DNA from: Thermoflexus hugenholtzii JAD2
Lineage (GTDB): Bacteria > Chloroflexota > Chloroflexia > Chloroflexales > Roseiflexaceae
Length of the DNA stretch: 46,265 nucleotides
NCBI GenBank assembly: GCA_945881915.1
Contig: CAMCVW010000027.1
Span: 1-46,265 of the forward strand
Reading direction: 5' to 3'
Shown here piece after piece: positions 42,196 through 45,317 of the stretch. The position numbers and the translations under genes were made by a program. Under the pieces are notes generated by a model that was not told the origin of the DNA, did not search any database, and saw nothing but the letters and a program-made list of their open reading frames with translations. Each line of letters opens with the position of its first letter. The stretch's first letter is position 1.

Positions 42196-42867
42196 ATGGG
42201 ATTGTTCATCACATTTGAAGGCAGTGAAGGGTGCGGTAAAAGCACTCAGTCGCGCCTCCTCCATGAGCATTTACGAGCCGCCGGGTATAACACCATCCAT
42301 GTCCGTGAGCCAGGTGGGACACCGATCGGTGACCAGATCCGGGCAGTAGTTCTCGGGATGAACAATACCGAAATGGACCCCACCGCAGAGTCTTTGCTTT
42401 TTTCTGCCTCGCGCGCGCAGCTGGTAAACCAGATTATTCGCCCACAGTTGGCTGCAGACGGCATCGTGATTTGTGATCGGTATGCAGATTCCACCTACGC
42501 ATATCAGGGATACGGACTTGGTCGCAACCTGGCAGATTTACGCACGGTGACAGCAATTGCAACAGGCGGATTGGCACCCGATGTTACCATCTGGTTGCGT
42601 ATCGATCCGGCAATCGGGTTACAACGCAAACAAACGGCTGCTGGCGAACTCGAATGGAATCGTCTCGATGCGCATGAACTCAGCTTCCATCAACGGGTGG
42701 CAGAAGGGTACCAAGACTTGGCTACCGCAGAACCACACAGATGGGTCAACTGCGACGCAGGATTATCCATTGCCGTATTGGCGACACATATTCGTACCAC
42801 TCTGGCGCCTCACCTAGACAAGGTGCCGCGTCGTGCTATACCGGTCAATGAAAGGACCACCCTATGA
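42196..42867 (+). CDS. tmk: Thymidylate kinase
   Basis: Tmk (EC 2.7.4.9) phosphorylates dTMP to dTDP. The 223-residue protein shows the P-loop FEGSEGCGKSTQSRLL (about residues 7-22), the REPGGTPIGDQIR motif (38-50), ESLLFSASRAQLVNQIIRP (about 64-82) with the conserved R/Q contacts, and the DRYADSTYAYQGYG substrate motif (about 94-107). LDAHELSFHQRVAEGYQDLA is the usual lid and helix. AAAAAAGGGTATT precedes the ATG. It overlaps the next gene (c-di-AMP receptor) by four bases. This order is conserved in several Firmicutes and Chloroflexota. Confidence 0.96.
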   Translation: MGLFITFEGSEGCGKSTQSRLLHEHLRAAGYNTIHVREPGGTPIGDQIRAVVLGMNNTEMDPTAESLLFSASRAQLVNQIIRPQLAADGIVICDRYADSTYAYQGYGLGRNLADLRTVTAIATGGLAPDVTIWLRIDPAIGLQRKQTAAGELEWNRLDAHELSFHQRVAEGYQDLATAEPHRWVNCDAGLSIAVLATHIRTTLAPHLDKVPRRAIPVNERTTL

Positions 42868-43199
42868 AGCTCATGATTGCTGTAGTCCAACGACAAGATG
42901 CTGGCGATCTCGTAGATGCGTTGACCGCTCGCAGCCACCGTGTGACACGCATCAGCAGTGAAGGTGGGTTCCTCCGTGAGGGTAACATCACCCTGTTGAT
43001 TGCGGTCGAAGAAGAACAGATCGAAGCAGTAATGCAGCTCATTCATACGCATTGCAATATGCGTATTCGGTATATTTCTCCGTTGCCACCGGTCGCTGAA
43101 TCCGGTGAATTCTACCCACCGACACCCGTCGAAGTCCAGGTTGGGGGAGCGACGGTTTTTGTGCTCAACGCAGAATCCGTCACGCGCGTCCTGAGTTAG
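42864..43199 (+). CDS. Cyclic-di-AMP receptor, DarA/PstA family
   Basis: A 111-residue PII-like signal protein (DUF970). In Firmicutes it binds c-di-AMP. Sequence marks are MKLMIAVVQRQDAGDLVDALTARSHRVTRISSEGGFLREGNITLLIAVEEEQIEAVMQLIHTHC (residues 1-63), where the T-loop-type SEGGFLREGN (about 30-39) and DAGDL form the nucleotide pocket, and GGATVFVLNAESVTRV at the C-terminus. It follows tmk with a four-base overlap, and AAAGGACC lies before its ATG. No diadenylate cyclase is in the window. It suggests that c-di-AMP signalling occurs in this organism. Confidence 0.93.
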   Translation: MKLMIAVVQRQDAGDLVDALTARSHRVTRISSEGGFLREGNITLLIAVEEEQIEAVMQLIHTHCNMRIRYISPLPPVAESGEFYPPTPVEVQVGGATVFVLNAESVTRVLS

Positions 43200-43251: not shown

Positions 43252-43755
43252 GTGGATATAGGTGGAACACTCGGAGTGCTCGGTCCCGTTTTTGACTTGC
43301 TCAAGTGGGTATTTGCGGGATATATCGTATTGCTCTGGATGGCGAGCGTCATTTGGACATACCGCGATATCCATGCACGCACCGAAGAAACGCTGCTGCA
43401 GGTCCTCGGCGTGTCTCTTGCACTCTTGATTCCCTTCGCAGGGCTCGGCATCTATTCCCTCCTGCGTCCACGCCAGACTATCGCGGATCGCTACGAGCGT
43501 TCACTCGAAGAAGAATATCTGCGTCACGACATTGAGGAGCAATTTGTATGCCCCCAGTGCCAACGCGGGATTGACCACGAATACATCCTCTGTCCGCATT
43601 GTCACACTGGTCTGCGTCGCCGTTGTATCGCATGCGATCGCGTCATTGACCTGACGTGGGCGATTTGCCCATTCTGCGGTGACGATGGCTCCGGCATGGT
43701 TGGTCGCACCACGAACGTCCGCCTGCCCCAAGTGAGCAGATCGGACCACGCATGA
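43252..43755 (+). CDS. Membrane protein with C-terminal double zinc ribbon
   Basis: A 167-residue protein starting at GTG with gaggggg upstream. Two hydrophobic helices lie near residues 12-35 and 48-70 (LLKWVFAGYIVLLWMASVIWTY, VLGVSLALLIPFAGLGIYSLL). After a charged stretch come two CxxC-type zinc ribbons: CPQC...CPHC (about 100-121) and CIAC...CPFC (about 127-144). It therefore looks like a membrane-bound zinc-ribbon protein with the ribbons in the cytoplasm. The function is unknown; similar proteins sit near tmk in related genomes. Its stop overlaps the start of the thioredoxin-fold lipoprotein by four bases. Confidence 0.75.
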   Translation: MDIGGTLGVLGPVFDLLKWVFAGYIVLLWMASVIWTYRDIHARTEETLLQVLGVSLALLIPFAGLGIYSLLRPRQTIADRYERSLEEEYLRHDIEEQFVCPQCQRGIDHEYILCPHCHTGLRRRCIACDRVIDLTWAICPFCGDDGSGMVGRTTNVRLPQVSRSDHA

Positions 43756-44411
43756 ACCGCTTGGCTTTATGGTGCATCGGTATATCGTTCGTCGCCTCGA
43801 GCTGTGGGCTCACACCTACAGCAACGCAGCCGGTGGACTTGAACGGCACGGTATCGCTTCTCTCGGAGCGTTCGCCAAATCCGCGTGCCTTTGGTGACCC
43901 GAAGGCACCCATAGTGATGCGTGAATTCAGCGACTTTCAGTGACCGTACTGTGAACAATACGTCCGTGAGACGTACCCTCAACTGATGAAGGACTATGTC
44001 GACACCGGTAAAGTCTACCTTGAATTGTATGACTACCCGCTGATGTCTATCCACCCTGGCGCGTTGATGGCAGCCCAAGCAGCCAATTGCACTGCAGAAC
44101 AGGGTGCCTATGCCGAAATGCGTGGTCGTCTGTTCACGGGCTCGCGCGACCAAGCCTGGCGCGATGGGTCAATGGATGACCTTACGTTGTTTGGCGATTA
44201 CGCCAGCGATATCGGCATCGATCGCGCTCAATTTGAGAGCTGTGTGACGACCAACCGGCATCTCCCACAGATCAAAGCGGACATCGCTTTTGCCGAGCAA
44301 AACGGAATCCGTAGCACCCCGACGTTCATCATCCGCGACCGGCTATACGCCGGCGCACAACCGTACGCGGTCTTCAAGCAAATTCTCGATACCATGTTGG
44401 ATCCGCCGTAG
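43752..44411 (+). CDS. DsbA-like thioredoxin-fold lipoprotein, candidate selenoprotein (in-frame TGA)
   Basis: Read through one TGA, this frame codes for 219 residues. The first 18 give a lipoprotein-type signal with FVASSC (Cys18). A linker follows, then the fold of the DsbA/BdbD family: APIVMREFSDFQ, the active site with TGA as codon 64 followed by PYC (Cys67), a helix EQYVRETYPQLMKDYV, YLELYDYPLMSIHPGALMAAQAANC, an inserted helical part, and IRSTPTFIIRDRLY with cis-Pro190. Relatives have FSDFQCPYC, so TGA replaces the first active-site cysteine alone. Codons on both sides show no other lesion. A hairpin (43959-43975) starts 15 bases after the TGA with a five-base loop C-G-T-G-A. I infer UPYC, a selenocysteine redox site. 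A nonsense mutation is the alternative. The start overlaps the zinc-ribbon gene by four bases. Confidence 0.7.
43959..43975 (+). promoter_or_regulatory. SECIS-like hairpin downstream of the TGA codon
   Basis: TACGTC (43959-43964) and GACGTA (43970-43975) form a 6-bp stem with loop CGTGA. The loop begins 21 bases after the TGA and has G at its second position. Bacterial SECIS elements are described as hairpins right behind the UGA with a G within the first bases of the loop at about 16-37 bases distance, so spacing and loop fit. The stem is short, so the match is suggestive. Confidence 0.5.
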
Positions 44412-44429: not shown

Positions 44430-44463
44430 ACCCGGGGTTGCCTGTGGCAACCCCGGGTTTTTT
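44430..44463 (+). terminator. Terminator of the tmk-lipoprotein gene series
   Basis: A perfect 13-bp stem (acccggggttgcc at 44430-44442 with 44446-44458), loop tgt, then a run of Ts to 44463. It lies 19 bp after the lipoprotein stop, showing that the TGA-containing gene is still within a normal transcription unit. Confidence 0.92.
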
Positions 44464-44523
44464 GTACTGCTTCTGGTAATGCAGTAGTAATGCCACGACC
44501 TTATGGTATTCCTAGGAGGTAGC

Positions 44524-45054
44524 ATGATGCATACGAAAAAATCGCTTCGACTCGCTGAATTCGATTACTCGAGCCCTGGGTATTACTTCGTGACGACCAC
44601 CGTCAGGAATTTCAGACGCGTATTTGGACGCACCGTCGATGAACTGATGATCCACAACGAAAGAGGGCTCATAGCCGTCGATTGTTGGGAGCACATTCCC
44701 TACAGTTACCCGGGTCTGGTCTTGCATACGTATGTCGTGATGCCGAATCACGTGCATGGAATTATCGAAATAACTGTCAATGCACCACGCGTGCGAACAT
44801 CATCCAAGCAAGACGGGACTGATGAATACAGACCGTCAGATTATCTCTTGAGTCAAGCGATGGGGTCATTCAAAGCTGCAGTAACGCACCGAATGGACGA
44901 AGGTCTCAAACGCACAGAAGAAAGTTTTTGGTATCCCGGATTCATGGACCGCATTATTCGCAATCAGTTCGAATACGACCAGAGGACGCAATACATACTC
45001 AATAATCCAAGACGATGGCACGAGCGCGAAGAACGTCGCCGCAAAAATCGCTGA
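44524..45054 (+). CDS. REP-associated tyrosine transposase (RAYT, TnpA_REP)
   Basis: A 176-residue Y1-type HUH transposase domesticated to act on REP hairpins. AGGAGGTAGC before two ATGs at 44524/44527 sets the start. The family pattern is clear: RLAEFDYSSPGYYFVTTTVRNFRRVFG (residues 8-34) as the opening strand pair, then LHTYVVMPNHVHGIIEI (about 68-84) with the metal-binding HxH, SQAMGSFKAAVTHRM, with basic and aromatic residues, and the C-terminal FWYPGFMDRIIRNQFEYDQRTQYILNNPRRW. It is a complete gene. The tandem REP-like array at 45082-45317 starts 28 bp past its stop, as is usual for RAYTs. Confidence 0.9.
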   Translation: MMHTKKSLRLAEFDYSSPGYYFVTTTVRNFRRVFGRTVDELMIHNERGLIAVDCWEHIPYSYPGLVLHTYVVMPNHVHGIIEITVNAPRVRTSSKQDGTDEYRPSDYLLSQAMGSFKAAVTHRMDEGLKRTEESFWYPGFMDRIIRNQFEYDQRTQYILNNPRRWHEREERRRKNR

Positions 45055-45081: not shown

Positions 45082-45317
45082 GTCGCCACCATGGCGGCGA
45101 CTACCCACCCGTACGCCGGGGGCCACATCCATCCTCGTCGCCACCATGGCGGCGACCTACCCACCCGTACGCCGGGGGCCACATCCATCCCCGTCGCCAC
45201 CATGGCGGCGACCTACCCACCCGCACGCCGGGGGGCCACATCCATCCCCGTCGCCACCATGGCGGCGACTACCCACCCGCACGCCGGGGGCATGCTCCCG
45301 GTCTTGCATGGCGGCGA
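45082..45317. repeat. REP-like palindromic tandem array next to the RAYT gene
   Basis: Four units of 55, 56 and 57 bp spacing begin at 45082, 45137, 45193 and 45250, with a degenerate fifth palindrome at about 45306. Each unit starts with a 20-bp near-perfect palindrome (gtcgccaccatggcggcgac, one mismatched pair) and continues with a GC-rich stretch containing cacccgtacgccggggg. The array is noncoding: translations give low-complexity peptides in several frames. It ends at the stop codon of ruvX. The arms would form hairpins in single-stranded DNA, the substrate expected for a RAYT. Confidence 0.88.

Follow-up and report, generated by a model that had tools for sequence, protein, structure and literature searches.

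DsbA-like selenoproteins with a UxxC active site were catalogued in the Sargasso Sea survey (PMC1088965), DsbG-like ones, also with UxxC, are listed in PMC13188914, and turnover between selenocysteine (Sec) and cysteine has been described (PMC1794560). The named family nearest to the protein considered here is NF041057 (Rcas_1661 family thioredoxin-like (seleno)lipoprotein), the UxxC-containing "DsbG-like protein" of PMC13188914; a literature search for Rcas_1661 found no paper naming it. The subject here is a DsbA-like (Thioredoxin_4) lipoprotein gene of 219 codons at positions 43752..44411 of a 46,265-nucleotide contig, the whole of which is called the window; this gene and the features placed around it below, from the thymidylate kinase gene to the terminator, lie on the forward strand. 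From sequence comparison, the freshwater Chloroflexota bacterium that carries it very probably decodes a UGA in the active site of the exported product as selenocysteine.

The frame 43752-44411, translated anew, yields 219 residues and contains one TGA only. This codon, number 64 (43941..43943), occupies the first position of the UPYC motif in the context FSDFQ-U-PYC; the gene ends with TAG at 44409-44411. An earlier first-pass annotation, made from the letters alone, had placed the sole in-frame TGA at the first cysteine of a DsbA-type active site, with which this agrees. In Pfam the protein scores 108.5 bits against Thioredoxin_4 (PF13462) and 46.4 bits against DSBA (PF01323), both over the gathering score. 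The resolving cysteine of UPYC, Cys67 (43950..43952), and Pro190 of the STP sequence (44319..44321), at the cis-proline position of the thioredoxin fold, had been described as intact; both are present and, like residue U64, invariant in the alignment. The C/UxxC motif stands at the start of a helix (65-83): AlphaFold2 predicts a DsbA fold with confidence (mean pLDDT 88.6) and puts residue 64 directly before that helix. The best solved structural matches are TsdA, BdbD and Corynebacterium diphtheriae DsbA (Z about 22); TsdA (7unn) and BdbD (3eu4), the top two (Z 21.9, rmsd 2.1 over 173-179 residues), are Cys-type oxidoreductases of Gram-positive bacteria with 21-31% identity to the window protein. 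An N-terminal signal peptide (43752..43805) leads to a weak lipobox, ASSC, at Cys18. The relatives have LAGC, LAAC or LVAC at this place, so that the label "lipoprotein" given earlier stands, with the small correction that the lipobox of the window copy is weak. Read in this way, the gene almost certainly encodes an exported, lipid-anchored DsbA-like thiol-disulfide oxidoreductase with selenocysteine as its nucleophile.

The window protein and NF041057 have much in common: both are Thioredoxin_4-type extracytoplasmic lipoproteins with UxxC in the Sec forms and Cys in others, both have a SECIS-like hairpin with a CGUGN-type loop, and both occur in the same lineage. They differ in that the window protein lacks the first ~80 positions of the NF041057 model and scores 140.9 bits against it (132.4 in the genome search), below the cut-off of 190; moreover, the NF041057 member has UGSC and a loop 17 nt after the TGA, as against UPYC and 21 nt. 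That member is encoded elsewhere in the same genome, as a second DsbA/DsbG-like selenoprotein gene (L104, G000:C7:89790-90542; 245.7 bits, TGA in UGSC). Its hairpin, CTTCCA-CGTGT-TGGAAG, begins its loop 17 nt after the TGA, and in homologues from other genera the stems vary but stay paired. In the protein tree, ten NF041057-type rows (nine Sec, one Cys), among which this genome's copy is the one scored against the NF041057 model, form a clade supported at 100/98, and the window protein falls outside it. The DsbA-like selenoproteins of PMC1088965 (PF01323, UxxC) share the DsbA-type fold with UxxC; the best Pfam match of the window protein is Thioredoxin_4 rather than DSBA, and its likeness to that set is at the level of fold and Pfam family. 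Since it scores below the NF041057 cut-off while a true member is present elsewhere in the genome, the window protein is, on these comparisons and with strong support, a new representative of a protein type described before, and is best placed as a sister lineage of NF041057.

The genome to which the window belongs (3.09 Mb, 98.6% complete) contains the full set of Sec genes that the first-pass annotation had proposed to look for (selA, selB, selC and selD). The tRNA-Sec scores 59.1 bits and is assigned the anticodon TCA by ARAGORN; SelB (363.5 bits, over its frame), SelA (498 bits) and SelD (347 bits) are all over cut-off. The SelD gene (L072, G000:C2:84360-85286) has one in-frame TGA of its own, which lies in the active site (U-A-A-K) and makes SelD itself a candidate selenoprotein. 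Elsewhere in this genome TGA is an ordinary stop: the tmk, zinc-ribbon and REP-associated tyrosine transposase (RAYT)-like open reading frames end in it, and RF2 is present.

A stem-loop of the bacterial SECIS (bSECIS) type follows the TGA. Its apical part (43959..43975) consists of TACGTC (43959-43964), the loop CGTGA and GACGTA (43970-43975), with six pairs; it begins 15 nt after the TGA, as had been noted earlier with the same loop and stem. The published bSECIS model asks for a loop of 3-9 nt, a stem of 4-16 bp, a G in the first two loop positions and a loop that lies 16-37 nt after the UGA (PMC13188914). Here the loop has 5 nt, the stem 6 bp, the G is at loop position 2 and is followed by U, and the loop begins 21 nt after the UGA. 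The folding that the first-pass annotation had suggested gave a borderline answer on energy. Against a criterion of minimum free energy at or below -7.5 kcal/mol, the 55 nt from the TGA fold at -8.4 kcal/mol in a structure that includes extra pairs, and the isolated hairpin at -5.9 kcal/mol in the window, which speaks against the reading, and at -8.0 in four relatives. A search of the window against Rfam returned no SECIS family match, as expected from the little sequence that bSECIS elements have in common. Taken in one sequence alone the hairpin is weak evidence for a SECIS: in eight other open reading frames of the window the same loose rule (stem of at least six pairs) is satisfied after some 10% of the codons.

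It is the comparison among relatives, not the hairpin in one sequence, that rules out chance, because TGA and hairpin are conserved together. All 21 distinct Sec copies have a loop that begins 21 nt beyond the TGA and a paired inner stem (4-6 contiguous pairs); across these copies 98.1% of cells pair at the five inner stem positions. Two stem pairs change on both sides, from A-U to U-A in many copies and from U-A to C-G in G038. The covariation score of 0.218 compares with a shuffled mean of 0.072, was reached by none of 500 shuffles, and falls to at most 0.078 for slid pairings; the shuffles ignore relatedness, and the score is therefore to be taken as support and not as a probability. Constraint on the RNA is also seen in codon usage. 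Of the conserved degenerate codon columns around the site, 28 in number, only four lack synonymous change, all of them inside the hairpin (V-R-E-T, GTC CGT GAG ACG, without synonymous change in up to 20 copies), and the 24 others all vary synonymously. At the corresponding position of the Cys orthologues, 11 of 13 form no pair.

These observations bear on the best surviving alternative, in which the UGA is decoded as Cys, Trp or some other residue, either by general reassignment of UGA or by Cys insertion through the Sec machinery. Low-level insertion of Cys by that machinery is described in other organisms, and lends the idea some plausibility. Against it stand the use of TGA as an ordinary stop in neighbouring genes, the presence of RF2, the full Sec machinery, and a hairpin that goes with TGA and not with Cys codons; we regard non-Sec decoding as very improbable. 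Decoding of codon 64 as Sec, proposed in the first-pass annotation, is thus supported by the machinery genes, by homologues with TGA or Cys, by the covarying stem-loop and by purifying selection.

The homologues show either TGA or a Cys codon at position 64, the alignment test that had been proposed. Every one of the 11 genomes of the genus has TGA at this codon, as do G012, G016, G017 and G018, which belong to the same family, and more distant Sec copies from other families; TGC or TGT is found at the locus in the Roseiflexus-like genus g4 and in G011, G014, G015 and G020. (The contigs of L009, L010 and L011 are those of L075, L076 and L079, and each was counted once.) In comparisons with the closest relatives dN is 0.10-0.20 and dS exceeds 1 on both sides of the TGA, which indicates purifying selection. 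Disabling changes in close relatives, which the first-pass annotation would have held against its own reading, are absent from nine of the ten genus relatives; the exception is the G009 orthologue (L083, G009:C20:17416-18054), where an extra in-frame TAA six codons upstream of the Sec TGA is either a sign of a decaying gene or an assembly fault. This second stop, and the origin of several related genomes from metagenome assembly, are the points in favour of a pseudogene or sequencing error, that is, of a TGA that arose as a nonsense mutation or is a miscalled Cys codon. Such an origin has hardly any probability left, given the same TGA in ten other genomes of the genus and in other families, the strong purifying selection on either side of it, and the retention of the neighbours, the terminator and all motif residues. 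A 141-codon open reading frame does begin at ATG 43986, and two products might then arise: a short exported peptide that terminates at the TGA, and a separate protein that restarts at this ATG. Such a pair is scarcely credible, as the first-pass annotation had also judged. The second product would have neither the active site nor the fold's first strand, and the stretch from the TGA to 43986 is conserved at the protein level, including PYC, in which P and C are invariant and the middle residue is Y or F.

The reading of one continuous gene, with Sec at codon 64, also fits its surroundings. The gene follows thymidylate kinase (tmk; 42196..42867), a cyclic-di-AMP receptor gene (42864..43199) and a double-zinc-ribbon gene (43252..43755), all conserved neighbours, the last of which overlaps it by four bases (ATGA); an intrinsic terminator of 13 pairs lies 3' of it (44430..44458). 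The overlap and the strong terminator had both been recognized earlier and are confirmed. In at least six genera of the family the orthologue stands behind the cyclic-di-AMP receptor and zinc-ribbon genes, which adjoin Sec and Cys copies alike, and tmk is found in most; because these neighbours are kept, the Sec and Cys copies are taken as orthologues at one locus. A mobile origin was considered and rejected: plasmid records contain distant relatives only, all below 60% identity.

Beyond the terminator, the open reading frame at 44503-45054 resembles a REP-associated tyrosine transposase (NCBIfam 44.6 bits, under the cut-off of 80). Directly after it, at 45082-45291, a 56-bp repeat that contains the perfect palindrome GTCGCCACCATGGCGGCGAC occurs about four times. 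This palindrome also lies near the DsbA-like gene in at least three other members of the genus, and for this reason the two elements may form a REP/RAYT pair.

Sec and Cys appear to have been exchanged repeatedly among these proteins. On the tree of 45 proteins, parsimony requires seven or more changes between the two states, three of which are forced by well-supported branches. The Roseiflexus-like genus g4 has Cys at the locus, and SelB is over cut-off in none of its six genomes; two of them have a tRNA match just over the tRNA-Sec cut-off (51 bits), yet no SelB. The Cys genomes G011 and G014 of family f1 likewise have no SelB over cut-off. Loss of Sec at the locus does not require loss of the machinery, because G015 (L086), with SelB and tRNA-Sec, and G020 (L089), with tRNA-Sec, have Cys at the locus and keep these components. 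Neither tRNA-Sec nor SelB is over cut-off in 3 of the 11 TGA-bearing genomes of the genus (60, 72 and 92% complete), which counts against the Sec reading. We incline, if only slightly, to the view that the orthologues make up a subfamily of their own among the DsbA-like lipoproteins of Chloroflexia, one that has Sec or Cys, is not yet catalogued and is defined by one syntenic place (tmk, cyclic-di-AMP receptor, zinc ribbon, dsb), by repeated Sec/Cys exchange and by loss of the hairpin in Cys copies.

By analogy with established bacterial biology, SelB with GTP and Sec-tRNA-Sec would bind the stem-loop just downstream of the UGA, and the ribosome would insert Sec instead of terminating. The protein would then be exported, lipidated at Cys18, and act outside the membrane on its lipid anchor, where Sec64 would attack disulfides, or be attacked as a Sec64-Cys67 selenylsulfide, with Cys67 as the resolving residue. 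The genome yielded one CcdA/DsbD-type membrane protein (40.1 bits), whereas a search for VKOR as an oxidising partner found none. This tips us slightly toward a role in reduction or isomerisation, with electrons supplied by the CcdA/DsbD-type protein, an oxidising role being almost as likely.

Standard gene calling cuts Sec genes at the TGA, so the DsbA-like protein is probably missing or truncated in the public annotation of the genus. At this locus Sec and Cys orthologues form a clean series within one neighbourhood, in a family that includes both Sec-decoding freshwater and SelB-less Roseiflexus-like lineages, and the exchange of Sec and Cys and the loss of the SECIS are therefore directly testable. 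A separate Chloroflexia subfamily, if it is one, would offer a natural test of what decides between keeping Sec and losing it, and the finding would place selenium use in the extracytoplasmic redox chemistry of these bacteria.
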